A DNA stretch of 23,900 bases, from IMG/VR virus record IMGVR_UViG_3300030451_001031, positions 1 through 23,900 of that record; one strand, 5' to 3'. Below the pieces are notes generated by a model, which saw nothing but the letters and a program-made list of their open reading frames with translations, did no database searches and had not been told where the DNA came from. This stretch comes from a virus. The position numbers and the translations under genes are program-made. Shown piece by piece: positions 4,688 through 23,900 of the stretch (its first letter is position 1; each line of letters begins with the position of its first letter).

Positions 4688-5569
4688 TTAATCGTCAAGT
4701 AGTTTTGCCATGGTCAGAGGACCTGCCACACCATCAGGTGTTAGTCCGTTGTCTGTCTGCCAGAGTTTCAGTGCACGTTCTGTGCCTCTACCGAATACTC
4801 CATCAGCATCTAACCCAAGTGCTTCCTGCATCAACTTGACTCCATCACCACGAGATCCTCTACGTAAGACTCCGATATCATCTAGGATATCATCCTCATC
4901 ATCATCGTCCTCTTCATGTACCTCGAAAGGCATTCCAAGAACTTCCATCGCATTGATATATCGTCTCTGTCGATCTTCCAGACCAATAGATCCACCATTG
5001 ATCTTCTTAGTCATTAGTTTTACGTTGTCACCATCAGCAATGTCATTTAGATTGTTTGTATCCCAGAACCAACATGCACTTTGTATTGCACCGTTGAAGG
5101 ACTGAACATACTCTGCCGCTTCTTCTGCAGTCATACCAATCGAGTCTCCGAAGCGTGAGTAATTTTCTCTGCCAGTCAATTGCTTTAGACCCCGGCCTCG
5201 AAATAACCAACCGTCACCCTCGTGAATGTTCCCCATTTTGTATTTACGGAACTCATCCATGTAGACATAGTTGGCAATCATTTCTGGTTGACGGTGATAC
5301 TCATCAGCATCCCTCTTGGGTGGATCACCAAAGTATCTACCAAAGACAGCACGTAATGCTTTTGCTGAGTAGTTTAGATTTTCTTCTAGTCGTTTGAAGT
5401 TTGCACTCTCGTGTGCACACTGGGACAAGAAGTGGGCAACCCTACGTTCAGTTGTGATTTCGTACATAGGCAATACTTCATACAATGCCGCGTACCATTC
5501 ATCAACCTGTTTGTTGCCAGGTATTATTTCAGCAAGATGATCTCTTGTGAAGTCGAATTCAAAACTCAT
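4688..5569 (-). CDS. endolysin: GH19-like muramidase/chitinase domain plus peptidoglycan-binding domain
   Basis: This 293-aa modular cell-wall hydrolase is expected to cleave peptidoglycan at lysis. The N-terminal GH19 (lysozyme-like fold) domain spans about residues 1-215. It has the catalytic-glutamate motif AHESANFKRLEENLNYSAKA (52-71) and the substrate-cleft block GWLFRGRGLKQLTGRENYSRFG (120-141). A strongly acidic linker (EEDDDDEDDILDD, 219-231) leads into a C-terminal PG_binding_1 domain (RRGSRGDGVKLMQEALG..., 237-293) with the repeating LG-x-DADGVFG and TPDGVAGP signature. There is no signal peptide or membrane segment, so release would need a holin, which is not seen here. AGGAG precedes the ATG. 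It lies between DNA polymerase and hsp20, far from typical lysis genes, downstream of a terminator-like hairpin. Confidence 0.92.
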   Translation of the reverse strand: MSFEFDFTRDHLAEIIPGNKQVDEWYAALYEVLPMYEITTERRVAHFLSQCAHESANFKRLEENLNYSAKALRAVFGRYFGDPPKRDADEYHRQPEMIANYVYMDEFRKYKMGNIHEGDGWLFRGRGLKQLTGRENYSRFGDSIGMTAEEAAEYVQSFNGAIQSACWFWDTNNLNDIADGDNVKLMTKKINGGSIGLEDRQRRYINAMEVLGMPFEVHEEDDDDEDDILDDIGVLRRGSRGDGVKLMQEALGLDADGVFGRGTERALKLWQTDNGLTPDGVAGPLTMAKLLDD

Positions 5570-5785: not shown

Positions 5786-6015
5786 TACACCCACCCTTTC
5801 ATGTTTGCGTTTACTGGTAACACTTTATCATTATATACAATTCTCGATGAGAGTTTCATATCAGAATCACCACGTGCTATTGAGACAATGTCTCCACGTC
5901 CGATTCCTATGTCATTCAGTTCCGCATCTGTTAAGGCACGTAGTTCCTTTATTGTCTGACGTACTTTAGAATTGAAACGCCACTTACTTACGATTTTTCT
6001 TAAAAAATTTGCCAT
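5785..6015 (-). CDS. DUF1127 (YjiS-like) small protein
   Basis: This is a 76-aa basic protein with the DUF1127 signature TIKELRALTDAELNDIGIGR followed by GDIVSIARG, about residues 22-50. The family is abundant in alpha- and gammaproteobacteria. Some short members are reported to bind RNA or to influence RNA turnover and phosphate physiology. I chose the ATG at 6015 (MANFLRK) because GAGGA lies about 8 bases upstream; the ATG at 6021 (MEMANF) is possible but only 3 bases from it. The start overlaps the end of hsp20 by about 32 bases, so the two are co-translated. A phage copy may act on host RNA metabolism; that is inference. Confidence 0.8.
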   Translation of the reverse strand: MANFLRKIVSKWRFNSKVRQTIKELRALTDAELNDIGIGRGDIVSIARGDSDMKLSSRIVYNDKVLPVNANMKGWV

Positions 6016-6442
6016 TTCCATTTTCCTCGTTTGATCCAATTTCAATCTTACGAGGACGCTTCTCTTCGGGAAGGATAACTTCTAGTTCGACAGTTAGAAT
6101 TCCATCCACCAGATCTGCTCCGTTTACTTCCGTATACTCGGACAGTCTAAATGACTTCTTCCAGTTTCGAGCACTAATTCCTTTATGAACATATAAGTCT
6201 TGATCTCTTCGTGCAGGGCGTTCACCAGTAATGGTGAGGACGTGATCCTTTATCTGAATATCAATATGTTCTTTTCGGAAACCTGCCACTGCAACTTCGA
6301 TGATGAACTTGAGTTCCTCATCCTTCACAACGTTGTGTGGGGGATAGGTATCTTTAGCATGTTTATGAATATTTTCAAGTTGATTAAAGATGTGGTCGAA
6401 ACCAATAAACCCACTACGTGGGTATACAATACTTCTAGTCAT
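5984..6442 (-). CDS. hsp20: small heat shock protein, Hsp20/alpha-crystallin family
   Basis: This 152-aa ATP-independent chaperone is expected to hold unfolding proteins in the cytoplasm. The alpha-crystallin domain covers about residues 40-140. It has the central strand DHVLTITGER (66-75), the stretch RNWKKSFRLSEYTEV (91-105) and the conserved DGILTVELEVILPEEKRPRKIEI (112-134). The short N-terminus with GFDHIFNQLENI is typical of IbpA-like proteins. The C-terminal IxI motif appears as IEIG. Hsp20 genes are known in marine T4-like phages, where a role in virion assembly or host stress has been suggested. AGGAGG lies just before the ATG, and a leader of about 55 bases with a small hairpin separates it from a sigma70-like promoter. 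It heads a unit with DUF1127 and the 56-aa gene. Confidence 0.95.
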   Translation of the reverse strand: MTRSIVYPRSGFIGFDHIFNQLENIHKHAKDTYPPHNVVKDEELKFIIEVAVAGFRKEHIDIQIKDHVLTITGERPARRDQDLYVHKGISARNWKKSFRLSEYTEVNGADLVDGILTVELEVILPEEKRPRKIEIGSNEENGNGKFFKKNRK

Positions 6443-16082: not shown

Positions 16083-16111
16083 ATTATATCACATTATCCT
16101 AGTATTGTCTA
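16083..16111 (-). promoter_or_regulatory. sigma70-type promoter of uvsY
   Basis: TAGACA (16111..16106), a 17-bp spacer and TATAAT (16088..16083) on the minus strand, with the uvsY ATG beginning 7 bases past the -10 box. The -35 overlaps the end of the oxygenase gene. Confidence 0.68.
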
Positions 16112-16662
16112 GTCTTTTCGAATAAGTAGATGTCGATTGGTATTGCTATCCTGAACCTAGAAGTAAATTTGTTTACCCAGTGATAGAGGAACGAAGGAAA
16201 TATCACATAGTCGCCTGTCTTGGGTTGGATAACAAATTCTTTGAAGTGCTTCGCAAACTTCTGATCATATCCTCGGTTTGCATTTGTTCTGGGATCTGTA
16301 AAGATTATCTCCCCACCTTGATCTTCTTCCTCTGCCATTATATAATATACAGAAGAGAACCAAGCACCCATATGATTGTGCTCTGCCATAGCATGATCTT
16401 CTGTCGGTGTCAACCACCCTTTTAACACGCTATGATATTCGTCTAAGTTTACCCCAAAATTTACGTTAGCAAAGTTTCTAAAGTTGGCATATGCCATATC
16501 TTTTAAGTCTTCTATGGGTTTACTTTCGTCATCAAATATGTTATAATTATCACCAATAGTATTTGGGACATTATAGTGAGTGAGAAGGTGATCTTGTATT
16601 GGTTTCATTCCTATATGATTAGAAGAATGTTCAATAGGAGTAGACCATCTGTGATATATCAT
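16099..16662 (-). CDS. 2OG-Fe(II) oxygenase family protein
   Basis: This 187-aa protein has a jelly-roll fold of the 2-oxoglutarate/Fe(II)-dependent oxygenase type, resembling the 2OG-FeII_Oxy_5 group common in marine phages. The iron-binding region AEHNHMGAWFSSVYYIMAEE (about residues 93-112) carries the HxH pair seen in this group. GGEIIFTDPR (116-125) and PKTGDYVIFPSFLYHWVNKFTSRFRIAIP (147-175) supply the distal histidine and the 2OG-binding arginine. The substrate is unknown; peptide or protein hydroxylation and small-molecule oxidation are both possible. GAGG lies 5 bases before the ATG. It is divergent from the radical SAM operon, with 43 bp between the start codons, so it may work with that system or simply border it. 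Confidence 0.85.
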   Translation of the reverse strand: MIYHRWSTPIEHSSNHIGMKPIQDHLLTHYNVPNTIGDNYNIFDDESKPIEDLKDMAYANFRNFANVNFGVNLDEYHSVLKGWLTPTEDHAMAEHNHMGAWFSSVYYIMAEEEDQGGEIIFTDPRTNANRGYDQKFAKHFKEFVIQPKTGDYVIFPSFLYHWVNKFTSRFRIAIPIDIYLFEKTRQY

Positions 16663-16673
16663 TGTAACCTCAT

Positions 16674-16681
16674 TATAAATA
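16674..16681 (+). promoter_or_regulatory. exact T4-type late promoter of the radical SAM operon
   Basis: TATAAATA on the plus strand is an exact match to the T4 late promoter recognised by gp55. The expected transcription start is near 16687. A strong AAGGA Shine-Dalgarno (about 16696-16700) and the ATG at 16706 follow at once. The 43-bp intergenic position, orientation and spacing all fit. Confidence 0.82.
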
Positions 16682-16705: not shown

Positions 16706-17173
16706 ATGAACTTTAAAGACTTCGAGGATTTCCTGCTATCTGAGAAATGCTTCAAATCACATGACGTATCTATAATACGAGAGGGTGGGTTGCAAGATCA
16801 AATAGACACCCTTCATTATTGGGATTATCAATCTCAAATGGCGAGGCATTTGGCAGAGGAGAAGGTAACAATAAAAGTAGAACAGATGGAACGTCATTGG
16901 AAGTTTGACGATAGAACAATTCATCTATTCTATAACCCAAAGTTCGGACCTACCTTTGATGAACACACAGATCCAGTAGACGTTATTATTGAAGTCAAAG
17001 CAGGATCTAAATCTCTAGAGGTTGACGGTCTAGAAGTAATATTAACAGTCGGGGATAAACTAATGATCCCTGCAGGAACTAAACACAAAGCATTAAATTA
17101 TGAAAAGGCATTAATCGCATCCCATGGCATTGGCGACACAGAAACACTTAATCGCATACATAAAGACCACTGA
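16706..17173 (+). CDS. cupin-domain protein, first gene of the radical SAM operon
   Basis: This 155-aa protein has a C-terminal cupin barrel (about residues 65-150). Motif 1 is around FGPTFDEHTDPVDVIIEVKAG (85-105), motif 2 around LTVGDKLMIPAGTKHKALN (117-135), with histidines H92 and H132 as possible metal ligands. The N-terminal 60 residues are helical (MNFKDFEDFLLSEK, QMARHLAEEK) and unassigned. It has the only strong ribosome-binding site of the operon (AAGGA, 6 bases before the ATG) and follows the exact late promoter. The last 50 bases overlap the next gene. It might bind or oxidise the product or substrate of the radical SAM enzymes; this is inference. Confidence 0.82.
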   Translation: MNFKDFEDFLLSEKCFKSHDVSIIREGGLQDQIDTLHYWDYQSQMARHLAEEKVTIKVEQMERHWKFDDRTIHLFYNPKFGPTFDEHTDPVDVIIEVKAGSKSLEVDGLEVILTVGDKLMIPAGTKHKALNYEKALIASHGIGDTETLNRIHKDH

Positions 17174-18158
17174 GACCTGCAATCTAAATTGCTCCCATTG
17201 TTTTACATCAGGAACTAACGGAAGGAAGATTTACTTCGATCCTGTGAAAACTGCAAACTGGTGTAATCAATTAGACACTGGGGATAATCTCATACATCTT
17301 GAGTATCATGGAGGAGAACCTATGCTTGCTCCAATGAAAGATCTATTGGAGTTCTATGATATTACAAAAGACAATTGGGGTGATCGCTGTACACACGGCA
17401 TCACTACTAACCTGACGTACAAACTAAAAGCAGAACACCTAGACTTCTTCAACAATTGTATCTCTGGTGGATATGTTGCTACTAGTTGGGATTCTAATAT
17501 CAGGTTTGCCAATGATAGACAACTTCGATTGTGGGAAAACAATGTATACACATTAGTACAACAAGGACTAGATGTCAAGTGTTTTATCTCAGTTACCAAA
17601 GATGTTGTCAGTAAACATCCATTAGAGATTGCAGACTACATGGAAGAACTTGGTGTCAGCGAAATATCTTATGAACGTTTGACTCACAACGGTAATGCCA
17701 CATTGAACCCAGACATCTTTCCTCACAATAGAGAACTGGATGCTTGGTGGATGTTAATGCACGAAACTACCAAAAACCATCCAGTAGCAAATGGTTTCTT
17801 GGATTCAGTCTATGCTAAGTTTGACGATAGAAACCAGTTCTTCAACGGAACCTTTTGTAGAGATTGTGAACAAAAGATACACACAATAAATGCAGATGGG
17901 ACAGTGGCAGGATGCCCTAACTCTGCACCTGTAGATTTCTACGGTCATATAGATATGAATGCAAAAGAAGTGAGAACTCTGCCTAAACGAATGGAGATCA
18001 TCTCTTGTGAGATGCATGAAAGAGATGAGAGATGCTACAAGTGTCCAGTGTTTTTATACTGCCACTCTGACTGTCATCAGTTGACTTGGATGGACGATGT
18101 ATGTCCTGCACCTAAAACTCTAATGATGAAACTAGCGAAAGAGAAACAATGGATCTGA
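17124..18158 (+). CDS. radical SAM / SPASM enzyme 1
   Basis: This 344-aa enzyme has the radical SAM motif TCNLNCSHC (C19, C23, C26), which holds the [4Fe-4S] cluster that cleaves SAM, and a canonical GGEP (63-66) for SAM binding. The C-terminus carries a full SPASM-type set. CEQKIHTINADGTVAGC is the C-x(n)-G-x-C part, and CYKCPVFLYCHSDC fits C-x2-C-x5-C-x3-C exactly, with a last Cys in DVCPAP, binding auxiliary clusters. This is the layout of sulfatase maturases and peptide-modifying enzymes (anSME, PqqE, AlbA types). The substrate is unknown. The start overlaps the cupin by 50 bases and lacks a good Shine-Dalgarno, so translation is probably coupled. Confidence 0.92.
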   Translation: MALATQKHLIAYIKTTETCNLNCSHCFTSGTNGRKIYFDPVKTANWCNQLDTGDNLIHLEYHGGEPMLAPMKDLLEFYDITKDNWGDRCTHGITTNLTYKLKAEHLDFFNNCISGGYVATSWDSNIRFANDRQLRLWENNVYTLVQQGLDVKCFISVTKDVVSKHPLEIADYMEELGVSEISYERLTHNGNATLNPDIFPHNRELDAWWMLMHETTKNHPVANGFLDSVYAKFDDRNQFFNGTFCRDCEQKIHTINADGTVAGCPNSAPVDFYGHIDMNAKEVRTLPKRMEIISCEMHERDERCYKCPVFLYCHSDCHQLTWMDDVCPAPKTLMMKLAKEKQWI

Positions 18159-19186
18159 TAATAAAACCAACAGAGGCATGTAATTTCAAATGCTCGTTTT
18201 GTTCTTCGACTGCAATCGATCCGAACAATGCAGGTTTATTGGACATGGACTATATCTTCAGGTTTCTGAAAAGATACCCTGAAACCAAATCTTTGATTAT
18301 CAATGGTGGAGATCCGTTGATGGTAGATCCTAGTTACTATTGGAAACTGATAGAGCATCTAGATGAACACGACTACCCTGCATACATTTCATTCACAACT
18401 AACCTTTGGCCTTTCTATGTAAAACCAGAGAAGTGGGTTGATCTATTCAATCATCCACGTATGGGTGTCTGCACATCTTTTCAGTATGGGGGTGGTAGAC
18501 TCAAAGGAGACTTCAGTGAATTTACTGAGGAAGACTTCTGGAATGTATCAGATGCAATGTTGAAGTACTGTGGAGAACGACCAGACTTTATTGCAGTGAT
18601 TACAGATATGAATGATTATCGTGCTATCGACAATGTAAAACTTGCCAAGGAAATGGATGTAGAATGTAAATTGAATTATGCCATGGCATCTGGTGTTCAA
18701 GGCAATACCTATCGGTTGAGTAAGATGTATAAGACATACGTTGATATCTACGATCAAGGTCTTCATCCTTGGGAATACAATACCAAAGCAATGATGAAGA
18801 GACTTGGTGGTTCTGCGACCAGTTGTCCCCAGAATAGAAAATGTGATGAAGGTATTCGTGCTTTCAATCCTGGCGGTGATTACTATTCCTGTGGTTCACT
18901 TGCAGATGATCTTGACTACGAGATAAACTTCGATGAAGAGATGAACGGTGAGATGCAAACACCATTACAAGATGATCCTCTTATCCAGACTATGAAGATG
19001 GCATGTTATACTTGTCCTATGTTTGAGATCTGTAATGGTTGTAAGAAAACTGTCAGAGACATGAAGAGAGAGGGAACTGTAGAAGAACATTGCAGACAAA
19101 TGAAAACCCTTGCTCCCAGAATATTAGAGATAAATAAAATGAACCCAGACGGTGTGACTCCCTATGTCGATGAATCTGTCCATTAA
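18149..19186 (+). CDS. radical SAM / SPASM enzyme 2
   Basis: This 345-aa enzyme has the radical SAM motif ACNFKCSFC (C11, C15, C18) and NGGDP (52-56) as the SAM-binding GGE-like motif. The C-terminal SPASM-like part has KCDEGIRAFNPGGDYYSC (C-x15-C with a G four residues before the second Cys). It is followed by CYTCPMFEICNGC (C-x2-C-x5-C-x2-C, one residue shorter than usual before the last Cys) and a final Cys in EEHCRQ. The start overlaps enzyme 1 by 10 bases. It resembles enzyme 1 in layout but is clearly a separate paralogue, not a recent duplicate. The substrate is unknown; SPASM proteins usually act on peptides or proteins. Confidence 0.92.
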   Translation: MDLIIKPTEACNFKCSFCSSTAIDPNNAGLLDMDYIFRFLKRYPETKSLIINGGDPLMVDPSYYWKLIEHLDEHDYPAYISFTTNLWPFYVKPEKWVDLFNHPRMGVCTSFQYGGGRLKGDFSEFTEEDFWNVSDAMLKYCGERPDFIAVITDMNDYRAIDNVKLAKEMDVECKLNYAMASGVQGNTYRLSKMYKTYVDIYDQGLHPWEYNTKAMMKRLGGSATSCPQNRKCDEGIRAFNPGGDYYSCGSLADDLDYEINFDEEMNGEMQTPLQDDPLIQTMKMACYTCPMFEICNGCKKTVRDMKREGTVEEHCRQMKTLAPRILEINKMNPDGVTPYVDESVH

Positions 19187-20105
19187 CCCCACCTACTACT
19201 GTAACTTCCGTTGTGACTTTTGCTACTTGACACCAGAACAATTAGGTGATAGACAACAGATTACACTCTCAGTATTAGATCAGAGACTATCAGAAGTCCC
19301 AGAGATAAACCATATAGATCTCTATGGGGGTGAAGTCGGTTTGCTTCGACCAGATTATTTTTATTCGATGAAAGATGTTATTCGTAAATACTACGATGGA
19401 GAAATAAATATAAACACGAACCTCTCTGCTTTCCCTGACTTCTTTAGGGATGATGATATAACATTATCGGTATCATATGACTTTGATGCAAGAGAGAAGC
19501 AACAACATGTCCTCAGTAATATGATGGATGCAAACAAAGAACTTGCTGTTCTAATACTGGCATCCGAAAAGGTATTGCAGATGGATGTGGACTTTATGAT
19601 ATTTACTTTGAACATGGTTTCTAATGTTGTGAGTGTAGAGATAAAACCATACTCGACTAACCAAGCAAACCAACATAATGTAACGCATAAGGACTTCGAA
19701 GACTTTGTTATAAAATGGTTGGAGCACCCAGACAAGAAGTTCCACTTTGAGAATGCCGCTAGAATAGAAGACTCGCTATCTGGTCAATACAATGCATTCA
19801 GTGATGATCATGTTTACATAACACCCAACGGCAGGTTTGGTGTATTAGAGTTTGATAAGAATGACCACGAATACTTTCTTGAACTTGACTCATACGATGA
19901 TTATATAAAGTGGACAGAGAAAGAAAAGACTGACAACGTGTCTGGAATATGTAAGAGTTGTGAATACTTTGGTAAATGTTTGACCGAACATTATAGATAT
20001 GTAAAAGACCTAACACACAGTTGTAATGGATATAAAGGATTATTAGATTATGCAAGAATGGAAAGCAAGATCCAACGCCTACCACTTGATGGAGTCAGTG
20101 TATAA
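19164..20105 (+). CDS. radical SAM enzyme 3 with reduced SPASM-like end
   Basis: This 313-aa enzyme has the motif YCNFRCDFCYL (C13, C17, C20) and YGGEV (54-58). The C-terminal cysteine set is reduced. CKSCEYFGKC fits C-x2-C-x5-C and a later Cys in THSCNGY follows. The upstream pair found in enzymes 1, 2 and 4 is missing: the equivalent stretch VYITPNGRFGVLEF has no Cys. It may bind one auxiliary cluster or only a partial one. The start overlaps enzyme 2 by 23 bases; MSMN or MN two codons later are both possible, and neither has a strong Shine-Dalgarno. The substrate is unknown. Confidence 0.9.
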   Translation: MSMNLSINPTYYCNFRCDFCYLTPEQLGDRQQITLSVLDQRLSEVPEINHIDLYGGEVGLLRPDYFYSMKDVIRKYYDGEININTNLSAFPDFFRDDDITLSVSYDFDAREKQQHVLSNMMDANKELAVLILASEKVLQMDVDFMIFTLNMVSNVVSVEIKPYSTNQANQHNVTHKDFEDFVIKWLEHPDKKFHFENAARIEDSLSGQYNAFSDDHVYITPNGRFGVLEFDKNDHEYFLELDSYDDYIKWTEKEKTDNVSGICKSCEYFGKCLTEHYRYVKDLTHSCNGYKGLLDYARMESKIQRLPLDGVSV

Positions 20106-20448
20106 AGATGATTTAGAAGGAGTGCCAATAAACTTCAGACCAGATACAGTTGTGGAAGACGCACTACTACATTTCAATATAAAGGTGCACGACTGGATCT
20201 ACCCTGCTAAGTCTTACTTCGTTGCTATCTGTTATGCCAAATGGATAGAGAAAGATTTCAAAGAAGACTTTTATACAGTGCTAGACGATGCTGATCTGAT
20301 CCCGAAAGATCCATACTTTCGGAGATACAGTCAAGACAAGGAAACATATGATGCGATTTTGAAAAGATTAGAATTCAACGAGGACAAGGGTATGTGCCCA
20401 GATGTCCGAGAGTATTACCACGAGGAAATGCTGTTTGACAAACTTTGA
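20050..20448 (+). CDS. 132-aa protein of unknown function inside the radical SAM operon
   Basis: I do not recognise this protein, and no enzyme motif is visible. It is acidic and aromatic-rich, with FRPDTVVEDALLHFNIKVHDWIYPAKSYFVAICYAKWIEKDFKEDFY in the middle (given in full here only to residue 75) and a tail rich in Tyr, Glu and Asp that ends in DKL. It contains two cysteines (CYAKW, MCPDV). AAAGGA lies 7 bases before the ATG, a good ribosome-binding site. It overlaps enzyme 3 by 56 bases and enzyme 4 by 47. Being the only non-enzyme besides the cupin, it could be a substrate, a recognition partner or a scaffold for the radical SAM enzymes. This is inference. Confidence 0.78.
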   Translation: MQEWKARSNAYHLMESVYKDDLEGVPINFRPDTVVEDALLHFNIKVHDWIYPAKSYFVAICYAKWIEKDFKEDFYTVLDDADLIPKDPYFRRYSQDKETYDAILKRLEFNEDKGMCPDVREYYHEEMLFDKL

Positions 20449-21499
20449 CTTTACAAAAGTCTTACTGGAGAAGAAGAGACCGAACATAGGTGAGATAGAA
20501 CTCACGCTATTTGAGAACTGTCACCTGAACTGTGCTTTCTGTCACCACGACAAGAAATCGACAGTTGGTCTTTCTCGTGAGGGAATGTTCTCTAAGATAC
20601 CTCTTGTTGAGGATCACCTGAAGAAAATGCAGGGGATGGTTAAGACGTGCCAGATCAATATGGTTGGGGGTGAACTATTCCAAGACAGGATCTCTGATTG
20701 GGCATATGATGTCTATTATGATATGCTGATAGAGATAAAGAAATTGTACGATAAATACGAACAAGAAATAAAAGTTGTTTGGGTAACATCGTTTCAATTT
20801 AGTAAGAGAGACAAAGTACAAAAACTCCTAGATGATTTGAATGAAGCAGATATACCATCCTATATTATTTGTTCCTATGACTTTGATGGTAGACCAGTAC
20901 GAGGACCTTACGGCAAGAACATAGAATACTTTGCCGACTACATTACGTCAATCAATATGGTTGCAACGGTTCCGTCTATAGAAAGGTTTATGAAAGATGA
21001 CGATGAGTATTTTCACTATCTCTATAGTAAGTTTGATAATTTTTACTTTGACGATTATATTCCTGATAAAGGTTTCGACCATCTTATCCCATCTGATAGT
21101 CTCTACCTTGATTTCCTCACCTTCATATTTCATAATTATCCCGACATTAACCCTATTAGTGATCTTATAAAGAATGAGAATAACCACATGCATTGCATGG
21201 CATTGAACAAGGTTACCATCTTTCCGAACAATAGTATATCAAACTGCAGGTGGGATCGCTACACTAAATCAGATTTCAACACACCACTGAACCGACAAGA
21301 CAATGCCAGTATGATGCAAGCATACATGGATGAACACGGTTGTCTTTCTTGTAAGTGGTGGGATAAGTGTGGGTTTAGATGCTACACACAATGGGACTGG
21401 AAGAACCGAGAAAGAGATCTACCTGACTGCGTAATGCGAATGTGGTTTAATTACATGGATCGAATAAAGTCTGGGAAGACACAACTGGTAAGTGCGTGA
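20402..21499 (+). CDS. radical SAM / SPASM enzyme 4
   Basis: This 365-aa enzyme has the motif NCHLNCAFC (C40, C44, C47) and VGGEL (88-92). The C-terminal SPASM-like region is complete: HCMALNKVTIFPNNSISNC (about x16 between the cysteines), then CLSCKWWDKCGFRC (exact C-x2-C-x5-C-x3-C) and a last Cys in LPDCVM. It has a longer N-terminus than enzymes 1-3. The ATG at 20402 has no Shine-Dalgarno; a TTG at 20435 preceded by GAGGA is a real alternative start. The last 49 bases overlap the convergent gene on the other strand. The substrate is unknown. Confidence 0.92.
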   Translation: MSESITTRKCCLTNFDFTKVLLEKKRPNIGEIELTLFENCHLNCAFCHHDKKSTVGLSREGMFSKIPLVEDHLKKMQGMVKTCQINMVGGELFQDRISDWAYDVYYDMLIEIKKLYDKYEQEIKVVWVTSFQFSKRDKVQKLLDDLNEADIPSYIICSYDFDGRPVRGPYGKNIEYFADYITSINMVATVPSIERFMKDDDEYFHYLYSKFDNFYFDDYIPDKGFDHLIPSDSLYLDFLTFIFHNYPDINPISDLIKNENNHMHCMALNKVTIFPNNSISNCRWDRYTKSDFNTPLNRQDNASMMQAYMDEHGCLSCKWWDKCGFRCYTQWDWKNRERDLPDCVMRMWFNYMDRIKSGKTQLVSA

Positions 21500-22476
21500 T
21501 GCTTCATGTAACTGATGACCCCTTTGTCAATACACGTCATCTGTTTGGGACACATCGCACATTGTTCTGTTTCTGCAGTATATTCTAATTGATTTAAAAA
21601 TTGATCTTCTTTCACCTTCGTCCAAGAATTAATATTCCATTCTTCCTTGACTTCGAACTCATCAGTTCCTATCATGACAATGTCGTAGACAAATGGTGTC
21701 CAGAAAAATCTCTCGTTGCAGTAAGTAAAGTTTAGTTCTAAAGATCCACCCTGTGCCTGATCAGCAATTGTCTTGGGGTACATGTCGTGACTGAAATCAT
21801 AACTCTTCCATTTCTCAATCATATGCTTTTGCACTTTACTCTTGGGTGCGCGAAAGAATGATGGGTTGAGTTGTAGTATCGTATCAAAGTATCTGTCTGT
21901 CACCTTCGATAGATCTAGAACCTTTTCATTGTCTTCGTCATCATTACCCATATTGTAAACGAAATAATAGTTTAGGTCATCTTCGAATAGGTTGAGCATG
22001 TTGAGTCTTGACTGAAGACTTCCCCAGACAACAGGATGTTCTACGACCACATTACAGTCGTACATAAAACCTTCCTTCTTGGGTATACTGTTTAGTAGAT
22101 CTATAACCCTAAGATCTATTTGTTCTGATAGAGTTGTTACGAATTGTATTGTAGTTACCTTAGATAAACATTCACGAAATATTTCATCTTGTAACAATTC
22201 TAGAACATTATTGTTACCGAATATATCAGTAGGTCCGATATTGATTGTAGAAACTCGGTAACCGTTTTCATTGAATAAGTCGATAGCATCATTGAGTCTT
22301 TGAAAATCCCCTACGTTAGATCCTAGTTTATTTACGAAACAACCTTTACACTTGAACTCGCAACCAGACAAGATCTCACAGTTGAACTGCACCTTGATCT
22401 CGTGTCCTTCACTAAAACTAAGATCAAAGTCTTTGTCTGCTTGTGCGTGGGATTTGTTATCAGTAACTATTCCCAT
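21451..22476 (-). CDS. radical SAM enzyme 5 (GPTD subgroup)
   Basis: This 341-aa enzyme has the motif GCEFKCKGCFV (C39, C43, C46). Where most radical SAM proteins have GGE it has IGPTDIFG (80-87), shared with enzyme 6. The C-terminal cysteines are CAMCPKQMTC (C-x2-C-x5-C) and a distant Cys in LTSCVF, a shortened SPASM-like pattern. I chose the ATG at 22476 (MGIVTD), preceded by GAGG at 6 bases, over a TTG 18 bases upstream. It overlaps enzyme 6 by 17 bases, and its last 49 bases overlap enzyme 4 on the other strand. The substrate is unknown. Confidence 0.9.
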   Translation of the reverse strand: MGIVTDNKSHAQADKDFDLSFSEGHEIKVQFNCEILSGCEFKCKGCFVNKLGSNVGDFQRLNDAIDLFNENGYRVSTINIGPTDIFGNNNVLELLQDEIFRECLSKVTTIQFVTTLSEQIDLRVIDLLNSIPKKEGFMYDCNVVVEHPVVWGSLQSRLNMLNLFEDDLNYYFVYNMGNDDEDNEKVLDLSKVTDRYFDTILQLNPSFFRAPKSKVQKHMIEKWKSYDFSHDMYPKTIADQAQGGSLELNFTYCNERFFWTPFVYDIVMIGTDEFEVKEEWNINSWTKVKEDQFLNQLEYTAETEQCAMCPKQMTCIDKGVISYMKHHALTSCVFPDFIRSM

Positions 22477-23605
22477 AATAAACCTCATCGTCAAATAGTT
22501 GTATCACGTCTTTATTTAGAATACATTCTTTCCTGTTCTCGAATACTGTTTCCATTACTCTGGGGACAAGTCGGTGAGAACATATATTTAAATACTTACA
22601 GGTATGGCACTCTGTCAACTGAGAGTTTTGAATTTGGTGGTTGACAATCCAGTGCTTATGTTCTAATATACGATCCACTATATCACCACCTTGGGTAATG
22701 TCAATAAGAAAAGCATCATTGTATATCTGTGCATTCTCGTATATAAAAGGTGCCATGAACATTCTTCCATTGTGTATGTTTATCACGGAGTAGTGGAATG
22801 CTTTATGGGAAACGTCACCTTGTAGGAAATGAAATTTTGTTTTAAATCTTTTTTCGTCAGTAGATAACTTCGTGAGCATGTCGTTCCACTCGAATAGTTT
22901 CTCTCCATGCTTTGGACTGTGGTCAAATGATCTCACTACGGACGGTAAGATCTCTATCACTGTTTGGTATTCTTCTCTGACTAAATCAATCGCATCATAG
23001 ATCATATCTTCGATACCGTCAACTATATTCGTTGCCATAGATATCTCATAGTTAAGACTTGACTCCTTAAATGTTTCGATACGATTATCGAGTGCTCTCC
23101 TATACTCTTTATCGTAAAGAAGTCTTTTCACATCTAATGCCACCTGTACGTCCCAAGACTTAACCACGCTCCCCACCAGTGACTTTTCTATTTTACGGAT
23201 CTTTCCCTCTATATCTTTTTCAGATAACGAACCAAGGATAGAACAATTGTGTTGAACATTGCGATTATCTTCAGGCATCATCATGATACCTTCTGCCAGT
23301 TTGACTTCTTCTATAATCGTCTCTAGGTTTTCTGCACCATAGAAGTCGGTAGGACCGATGACAAGATCATCCAATACAATGTCCTCTCTACCCATAAGTT
23401 CCTTTGCGAGTTCCCAGAAAAGATGAATAGAGTACGGACTCCAGTTGCCCTTACGTTTGACAAAGCAACCAGGACACATATAGGAACAACCCTCAAGTAT
23501 CTCTAACTGAGGTTGTATCTTATACTGGGACATGGCAGAGATAGCAGTAAACTCTTCAAGTCTATTCCCATCAACTACAATCTTTTTCCATTCGTCATTT
23601 AACAT
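22460..23605 (-). CDS. radical SAM enzyme 6 (GPTD subgroup)
   Basis: This 381-aa enzyme has the motif GCSYMCPGCFV (C40, C44, C47) and VIGPTDFYG (82-90) in the place of GGE. The C-terminus carries CHTCKYLNIC (C-x2-C-x5-C) and a further Cys 16 residues later (RKECIL). The stretch before it (SVINIHNGRMFMAPFIYE) parallels RFFWTPFVYD of enzyme 5, so the two appear to be paralogues throughout. The ATG overlaps the preceding gene by 11 bases with no Shine-Dalgarno, suggesting coupled translation. The substrate is unknown. Confidence 0.9.
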   Translation of the reverse strand: MLNDEWKKIVVDGNRLEEFTAISAMSQYKIQPQLEILEGCSYMCPGCFVKRKGNWSPYSIHLFWELAKELMGREDIVLDDLVIGPTDFYGAENLETIIEEVKLAEGIMMMPEDNRNVQHNCSILGSLSEKDIEGKIRKIEKSLVGSVVKSWDVQVALDVKRLLYDKEYRRALDNRIETFKESSLNYEISMATNIVDGIEDMIYDAIDLVREEYQTVIEILPSVVRSFDHSPKHGEKLFEWNDMLTKLSTDEKRFKTKFHFLQGDVSHKAFHYSVINIHNGRMFMAPFIYENAQIYNDAFLIDITQGGDIVDRILEHKHWIVNHQIQNSQLTECHTCKYLNICSHRLVPRVMETVFENRKECILNKDVIQLFDDEVYYGNSY

Positions 23606-23900
23606 AAGATATATTCTTTATTCTTTCTAGTTCTGGATCATTATCTTCTGTCACCAAGAACTTCTTTCGATATCCTCGTTTATCATTCTCTACGCTGTAA
23701 CCATCCCATTGATACATTGTCTGTGCAGGTGCATTGTAATTGTGTATGTTGTTTAGCATATTCTCTTTCGGTGCAATGCAATGCTTGACTCCCAGATAAT
23801 CTCGTAATAGAATTATCTTACGGTTGTAGCAACTAAAGAACAATGGACAGTCTTCACACTCTGTACCCTTTGCTCTATTTATTTGTGACTCAGTTATTGG
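23595..23900 (-). CDS. C-terminal part of a probable seventh radical SAM protein, cut by window edge
   Basis: The frame is open from the right window edge to the stop at 23595, giving 101 visible residues of a larger gene; its start lies outside. An apparent start at a TTG (23843) would be an artefact, because the coding sequence continues upstream through TECEDCPLFFSCYNR. That stretch gives C-x2-C-x5-C followed by another Cys 16 residues later (VKHCIA), the same spacing as in enzyme 6. I therefore read it as the SPASM-like end of another enzyme of the same subgroup. The last 60 residues (PAQTMYQWDGYSVENDK...) are an extra tail not seen in enzymes 5 and 6. The radical SAM motif itself is not visible. 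Confidence 0.72.
   Translation of the reverse strand, partial: PITESQINRAKGTECEDCPLFFSCYNRKIILLRDYLGVKHCIAPKENMLNNIHNYNAPAQTMYQWDGYSVENDKRGYRKKFLVTEDNDPELERIKNISYVK

Follow-up and report, generated by a model that had tools for sequence, protein, structure and literature searches.

The IMG/VR virus record IMGVR_UViG_3300030451_001031 comprises 23,900 bases, all of which were analysed here and to which we refer as the window. Its right-hand part holds a cassette of radical S-adenosylmethionine (SAM) enzyme genes in a T4-like phage, and comparison with related loci points to a target for these enzymes, namely a small protein, encoded beside a tail-fibre gene, that ends in three Cys-His-x-Ser units (the CHxS tail). 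We propose that the cassette represents a late-expressed phage pathway which modifies this tail, and that the product serves fibre-based host recognition or attachment, a reading that we consider likely as a whole. Its parts differ in strength: the assignment of the CHxS tail as substrate of the cassette, founded on comparative evidence, is strong and very probably correct, while membership of the modified product in the fibre or virion is probable, judging from the order of genes.

A conserved C-terminal tail linked to radical SAM genes

Related loci were retrieved with a single enzyme of the cassette (C in the list below), and their six reading frames were then searched for the pattern CH..CH..CH only. 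Wherever the pattern occurred in these loci it lay solely at the extreme C-terminus, in one protein or two for each locus, and its third CH was always followed by two residues, then R[G/S]RR and a stop. Every cassette locus reaching far enough possessed it, and all phage groups sampled, cultured jumbo phages among them, combine this tail with the cassette. A codon-level pattern of the tail located at least 120 stretches in viral contigs, and among the matches listed 163 distinct proteins share the 16-residue end CHx[S/N/A]CHx[S/N/A]CHx[S/N/A]R[G/S]RR, in which the third position of each unit is confined to Ser, Asn or Ala, though the pattern permitted many residues there, and the second is free. 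These candidate substrates measure about 100-360 amino acids (aa), and the region upstream of the tail is highly variable (about 120-140 aa in the group of the window, mostly 170-260 aa elsewhere). For the motif protein of the window's species a folded alpha/beta domain is predicted, with a predicted local distance difference test score (pLDDT) of 79.5 overall and 50-60 at the tail end. A 231-kb virus contig encodes a four-unit motif protein with Asn at every third position (CHSNCHSNCHSNCHTNRSRR; L117:8108-8878), which adjoins a very divergent cassette. Tandem substrates of 309 and 260 aa occur at L152:11753-13464, outside the window's group, which suggests that duplication happened more than once or is old.

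The cassette genes and adjoining features of the window, lettered as they are cited throughout, are as follows.

16706..17173, plus strand: A, cupin of 155 aa (Cupin_2, E 3e-5; phrog_8014)
17124..18158, plus strand: B, radical SAM/SPASM-type enzyme of 344 aa (CNLNCSHC at residue 19; phrog_1802, E 6e-53)
18149..19186, plus strand: C, radical SAM enzyme of 345 aa, the most conserved member (PF04055, 33.7 bits, above cut-off)
19164..20105, plus strand: D, radical SAM enzyme of 313 aa (PF04055, 28.3 bits; phrog_1802, E 3e-36)
20050..20448, plus strand: E, conserved partner of 132 aa (phrog_20737, E 5e-36)
20402..21499, plus strand: F, radical SAM/SPASM-type enzyme of 365 aa (CHLNCAFC at residue 40; phrog_1802, E 8e-21)
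21451..22494, minus strand: G, divergent radical SAM enzyme of 347 aa (CEFKCKGC at residue 45; AlphaFold2 model)
22460..23605, minus strand: H, divergent radical SAM enzyme of the G family, 381 aa (CSYMCPGC at residue 40; C-terminal CxxCx5C...C)
23595..23900, minus strand: I, a third radical SAM enzyme of G/H type, truncated by the window end so that its C-terminal part remains
16099..16662, minus strand: O, 2-oxoglutarate (2OG)-Fe(II) oxygenase, divergent neighbour of the cassette (PF13759, E 1.5e-14)
16674..16681, plus strand: T4-type late promoter TATAAATA, exact match, 25 bp upstream of the cupin start

When viral contigs were scanned for the motif alone, 126 distinct phage loci measured 3 kb or more, and in 123 a radical SAM gene stood no more than four genes away from the motif; the three exceptions (L190, L114 and L159) are cut loci, and sister loci on the same contigs (L061, L064 and L020) hold the cassette. 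The gene immediately before the substrate is B in 82 loci and a fibre in 29, and the gene after it belongs to family f24 in 82. Fibre genes stand within five genes upstream in 67 of the 77 loci having at least 2.6 kb of upstream sequence, and these cassette-linked fibres match tail-fibre PHROGs, one of them with a weak Peptidase_G2-type autoproteolytic end (22.8 against 25 bits). Outside the window's group the usual order is fibre, cupin, B, substrate, f24, f25, F, in some cases a B12-binding radical SAM enzyme, then oxygenases, C, an oxygenase, D and E. Where substrate, B, C and D occur together (55 loci) there are four to nine radical SAM genes, with F in 54 and E in 44. Expansion to nine through the G/H/I family is confined to the window's T4-like group; many lineages outside it have B12-type radical SAM enzymes and 2OG oxygenases, which suggests that the tailoring varies and the core is kept. 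One such B12-binding enzyme, related to C-methyltransferases of the KedN5 type, is encoded at L061:6638-8554, and family 33 supplies further cases in L076, L077 and other loci. No protease, transporter, exporter or immunity gene was recognised within the conserved cassette gene set.

Gene content of the window and its species

Minus-strand genes of T4 type for replication, recombination and late transcription fill the left two thirds of the window, as judged by eye from the open reading frames; a small heat-shock-like protein (5984-6442) and a cell-wall hydrolase-like protein (4688-5569) were likewise noted there by eye. A to F are six plus-strand genes, beginning at 16706, whose ends overlap by 10-56 bases, and G, H and I are three more radical SAM genes convergent on them from the right. 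The position of the cupin at the cassette head is conserved, and its product also scores 22.3 bits with JmjC_2 against a cut-off of 22. Enzyme C shares 52-59% identity with counterparts in cultured jumbo phages, partner E is present in most phage loci and in the bacterial loci described below, and oxygenases of the O family are found in most cassette loci. The initial annotation had described six complete radical SAM genes and probably a seventh, together with a cupin and a 132-aa partner; its count is right, all parts lie where it had placed them, and both the cupin and the partner are real by their profile matches. The seventh gene, I, shows only C-terminal cysteines in the window, and its full-length copy in the same species (L009:15447-16604, 385 aa) has CHHKCPGC at residue 34.

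Contigs L009, L010 and L011 match the window at 98.8-99.3% DNA identity over 6-16 kb, and L146, which overlaps L010 at 99.7% identity, carries the locus past the right edge. Proceeding rightwards, these contigs together supply the rest of I (385 aa) and then, in L010 and L146, a radical SAM enzyme of 348 aa, f18 (245 aa), f19 (362 aa), a radical SAM enzyme of 401 aa, two small substrates and a fibre protein of 565 aa, beyond which are a 150-aa gene and genes resembling, by eye, those for tail tube, capsid gp23 and core gp22. Read in the direction of transcription, the genes with core-like, capsid-like and tube-like products come first, then the 150-aa gene, the fibre, the two substrates and a radical SAM gene, with both substrate genes directly downstream of the tail-fibre gene. 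The two tandem substrate proteins end in ICHTSCHTSCHTSRGRR and VCHTSCHSSCHTSRGRR, both of which fit CHxSCHxSCHTSRGRR. These same-species contigs place nine radical SAM genes, two of them past the truncated I, between the replication region and the structural genes, and the cluster first described, although correctly delimited at six or seven within the window, is therefore part of a larger set of nine enzymes and two substrate genes. An assembly chimera, a source of error that the initial annotation had raised, is ruled out, since contigs of several other samples give the same arrangement at 98.8-99.6% identity across the cluster; the gene-neighbourhood comparison that it had called for found the same gene set in dozens of other phages.

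The late promoter proposed at the outset is present as TATAAATA, the T4 late promoter consensus, of which the window contains three copies against 1.8 expected, so that a single match is near chance. Its distribution across loci is more telling: of 50 cupin starts in loci with the divergent layout, 33 have the sequence nearby, as do 31 of 142 starts of substrate genes, and elsewhere it lies near none of 119 B, one of 93 C, none of 85 D, none of 62 E, three of 102 F and one of 162 G-family starts. The enzyme operon and the substrate accordingly look late, like virion parts.

Relationships of the cassette enzymes

The CxxxCxxC motif starts at residue 19 in B, 11 in C, 13 in D, 40 in F, 45 in G and 40 in H, and across loci it is found near the N-terminus of nearly all homologues (B 157/159, C 119/119, D 96/96, F 117/117, G-H-I family 209/216). 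PF04055 recognises C above its cut-off, D close to it (28.3 against 29.5 bits), B below it (22.3 bits) and F weakly; all four match the phage family phrog_1802 (E 1e-20 to 1e-53), and the F family resembles the B family in profile comparison (probability 99, E 4e-19). The other three, G, H and I, belong together in a divergent family of their own, marked by an invariant CxxxCxxC and, at the C-terminus, by a CxxCx5C...C set; PF04055 matches 7 of 44 members (E<=0.01). The profile of this family finds B and C weakly (probability 4-5) and D at probability 79, and its relationship to other radical SAM enzymes, weak by profile, was settled by structure. Searched with Foldseek against PDB, the AlphaFold2 model of G (pLDDT 84.5; predicted template modelling score 0.87) matches CteB best (5why, probability 1.00), followed by viperin, SpeY and anSME. 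CteB is a thioether-forming sactipeptide maturase; the predicted G-family fold is thus nearest to a peptide maturase, which counts in favour of a modification pathway. The radical SAM barrel assumed in the initial annotation is accordingly borne out by profile for C and by this model for G.

Scores with TIGR04085 (SPASM, cut-off 27 bits) are 24.6 for B, 18.4 for C, 15.8 for F and 14.9 for H, and a SPASM-like cysteine pattern is visible in the C-terminal parts of the cassette radical SAM proteins. The nearest NCBIfam models, the cyclophane maturase AmcB and PapB for B and the dynobactin maturase DynA for C, are matched far under their cut-offs, and no equivalog cut-off was reached (DynA 39/450, AmcB 37/425, PapB 32/340 and DarE 24/650 bits). 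A search by sequence gave no credible relative of solved structure for the G family, the substrate or f24. Among the accessory genes, f18 and f24 are one family by profile comparison (probability 98), and a similar union of f19 and f25 is unsupported (probability 0.5).

Distribution in cultured phages and predatory bacteria

The gene set is present in the cultured jumbo phages Atu_ph07, Phosso, FLC6, FLC8, SURPRISE13 and pPa_SNUABM_DT01, whose hosts are Agrobacterium, Sinorhizobium, Burkholderia and Pseudomonas. Direct reading of the sequence showed the motif in Atu_ph07 (gp170), Phosso (L006:7940-8860), SURPRISE13 and pPa_SNUABM_DT01, each of which contains exactly one CH..CH..CH site in its whole genome, and the backward control pattern gave zero sites in these four genomes; FLC6 and FLC8 have a counterpart of the motif protein that is 88% identical over its full length. 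In SURPRISE13 the annotated neighbours are a virion structural protein, a cupin, radical SAM enzymes and 2OG oxygenases, and two annotated dihydrofolate reductase genes lie within its cassette (L007:10855-12032), possibly pathway reductases. Campylobacter phage CP220, with 11 radical SAM genes, was considered as a further case of the system and rejected on the motif, which is absent from its whole genome; not all phages rich in radical SAM genes, therefore, have the system. Five of the CP220 genes are adjacent (FN667788.1, 70696-77391) and may act on a different substrate.

A scan of one genome for each of 84,980 species returned 16 motif stretches. Outside phage-like contigs, Bdellovibrionota was the sole phylum in which the motif turned up (9 of 369 genomes searched, these nine being metagenome bins), under record titles that name Bacteriovoracaceae, Bdellovibrionaceae and Halobacteriovoraceae, and 'bacterium isolate 1_bin.12' in the same phylum. 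The remaining stretches have mostly phage gene order, and one (L216) ends at the motif. Besides the motif protein, the Bdellovibrionota loci encode B, C, D, E and F, the f24 protein and oxygenases, with a B12-type or G-type radical SAM enzyme in some, and their C proteins form a single clade (support 97/92; four sequences). Flanking genes look chromosomal, that of L237 being read by eye as a cbb3 oxidase operon. All six bacterial loci with enough flank (L236, L237, L238, L224, L239 and L245) carry a Peptidase_S74 protein in tandem with a conserved companion gene. PF13884 is matched at E 8e-13 to 8e-17 in four of these neighbours, which are distinct from the substrate, and some begin with a pilin-like N-terminus (N_methyl above cut-off in one and near it in another), perhaps representing a fibre on a pilin-type anchor. 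Homology of the companion gene to the C-terminus of the phage fibre was also considered, and is only suggestive (E 0.009, probability 4).

Proposed pathway and alternatives

In the pathway that we propose, one or two substrate genes come straight after a fibre gene or are set off from it by the cupin and B, and fibre, substrate and enzymes are probably all made late; the core enzymes B, C, D and F would act on the CHxS tail with the help of E, the f24/f18 protein and the cupin; and added enzymes, comprising five G/H-family radical SAM enzymes in the lineage of the window and B12-type radical SAM enzymes with 2OG oxygenases elsewhere, would also act on the tail. The constant position of B beside the substrate suggests that B acts first or binds the substrate. 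AmcB and DynA link the side chain of an aromatic residue or of histidine to the residue at position +2. The spacing of H-x-S/N/A, together with the beta-carbon hydrogens common to Ser, Asn and Ala, fits a ring closed at the beta carbon, and the acceptance of all three residues argues against chemistry on the serine oxygen. By analogy, the chemistry might consist of ring formation within each His-x-Ser unit, a tentative suggestion that we regard as rather doubtful. The modified protein would then probably cooperate with the fibre in host recognition or attachment; in some T4-like phages an adhesin gene directly follows the long fibre gene, and this slot is the position of the motif protein in the window's group. 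The initial annotation had supposed a late-made pathway for modifying virion proteins or a peptide, which the invariant tail, the neighbouring fibre and the late promoters support, and had offered lysis as another role, for which we found no support. A bolder version, in which phages and predatory bacteria share the pathway and a ring-bearing tail of three CHxS units on a fibre-associated recognition protein is an exchanged attachment module, is conceivable, and in our judgement falls somewhat short of likely.

Several observations weigh against the proposed pathway. Invariance of Cys, His and Arg in the larger set of tails was dictated by the search pattern, a bias that the loci fetched with C escape for the Ser and RGRR positions only. 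The model of the motif protein has no Foldseek match below E 0.001 in PDB or BFVD, and its placement in the virion is thus inferred from gene order alone. Ten of the 77 phage loci have no recognised upstream fibre. In Bdellovibrionota the substrate proteins have no obvious signal peptide at their start, as judged by eye, which leaves their export unexplained, and the Cys-His repeats could simply bind metal.

This last point can be extended to a different account of the locus, in which the CHxS tail binds metal without being modified and forms the tip of the fibre, and the radical SAM enzymes act elsewhere, for example on the fibre. T4 gp37 has iron sites, and invariant Cys-His pairs would suit metal coordination in a trimer beside a fibre gene; we nevertheless think such a tip improbable, as the motif and the enzymes are inseparable in phages and in bacteria alike, across differing fibre types (FIB, f72 and S74-pilin), and as metal binding would require neither the invariant RxRR end nor the S/N/A position. 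Somewhat better placed, though still unlikely, is a phage version of the ribosomally synthesized and post-translationally modified peptides (RiPPs), whereby the C-terminal peptide, once modified, would be cleaved from the protein and set free to act as an antibiotic, toxin or signal. The motif proteins and their linked radical SAM genes do combine a ribosomal precursor, bearing a conserved core, with adjacent modifying enzymes, as RiPP loci do; the core is short and C-terminal, the maturases are distantly akin to makers of antibiotics (AmcB, DynA and DarE), and some lineages add B12-type enzymes and 2OG oxygenases in the manner of heavily modified RiPPs. Release of the peptide is harder to reconcile with a conserved set lacking any recognised protease, transporter or immunity gene, with a 'leader' of variable sequence that is predicted as a folded domain, and with late promoters and an adjacent fibre, although a protease or exporter might be supplied by the host or by a phage gene lying elsewhere.

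The enzymes might instead form crosslinks between the motif protein and the fibre, or some other protein of the virion, making the tail an anchor as opposed to a recognition tip. Radical SAM enzymes can make carbon-carbon and thioether links, and in the window's species the fibre gene immediately neighbours a substrate gene. Known radical SAM peptide maturases, however, act within one chain, and no inter-chain link appears in our data, such that we hold this possibility to be very unlikely. Most remote of all is an auxiliary metabolic role, in which the set would boost host metabolism or Fe-S chemistry, as proposed for other phages (PMC2853527, PMC5332604): although the 11 radical SAM genes of CP220 without the motif indicate that phages carry such sets for other purposes, no radical SAM enzyme of the cassette is close to a metabolic family, and the constant pairing with a fixed peptide motif, the late promoters and the recurrence of that pairing in Bdellovibrionota all speak against it.

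Relation to described systems

Clusters of this kind were published before, which qualifies the statement of the initial annotation that it knew of no phage system combining so many; their substrate was not found in the papers searched. A radical SAM gene cluster was reported in the Campylobacter phages CP220 and CPt10 in 2010 and read as metabolism (PMC2853527), a T4-like ocean virus with 12 radical SAM genes followed in 2017 (PMC5332604), and radical SAM genes were placed in the host-recognition cluster of pelagimyophages in 2020 (PMC7029224), the function of these earlier clusters being interpreted as metabolism or left open. Radical SAM genes are listed without function in jumbo phages (PMC8066314, PMC11898562, PMC5468394), and radical enzymes go unmentioned in a survey covering 224 such phages (PMC7824862). 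In the CP220/CPt10 cluster, as in the cassette, radical SAM genes, there about a dozen, accompany T4-like genes in a phage, but CP220 lacks the CHxS motif. The pelagimyophage cassettes and the 12-gene ocean virus, with radical SAM genes among fibre genes, are possibly the same system in part, although neither a substrate nor a function was proposed there. None of the papers found names the motif, in a search that did not cover subscription papers or preprints.

With the RiPP radical SAM/SPASM systems (AmcB, PapB, DynA and the anaerobic sulfatase maturase) the cassette shares the placement of enzymes beside a small protein with an invariant C-terminal segment; it departs from them in scoring far below their family cut-offs, in carrying four to nine radical SAM genes per locus, in having no recognised protease or exporter, and in its occurrence in viruses, where a fibre locus contains the substrate. 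Among described systems, the closest that combines radical SAM genes with a His-x-Ser repeat is the His-Xaa-Ser (Hxs) system of Haft and Basu, in which a small protein with such repeats accompanies several radical SAM genes. The repeat unit of the cassette is C-H-x-S, however, HxsC scores 22.8 and 17.9 bits against a cut-off of 267.9, and HxsA matches none of seven substrates. On the bacterial side, S74 is a chaperone of phage tail spikes and of the prey-recognising mosaic adhesive trimer (MAT) fibres of Bdellovibrio (PMC10769870), and S74 proteins likewise adjoin the bacterial cassette; these neighbours differ from MAT fibres in their pilin-like starts, and radical enzymes are unmentioned in that study.

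Conclusions

The radical SAM system profiled here is real and widespread, and undescribed as far as our search reached. The logic of a radical SAM enzyme with a target peptide is known; the novelty lies in finding it at the fibre loci of phages and in bacterial predators. Since 2010 it has been a puzzle that certain large phages possess as many as a dozen radical SAM genes; we can now point to a specific candidate substrate, its 16-residue motif, the order of the genes and phages in culture that would serve for tests, and the loci offer enzymology a large set of radical SAM enzymes together with a likely target peptide. If the proposed pathway is correct, virion parts of these phages would carry chemistry beyond the twenty amino acids; predatory bacteria would be employing the same enzymes next to fibres of phage type, and both might rely on them for attachment.

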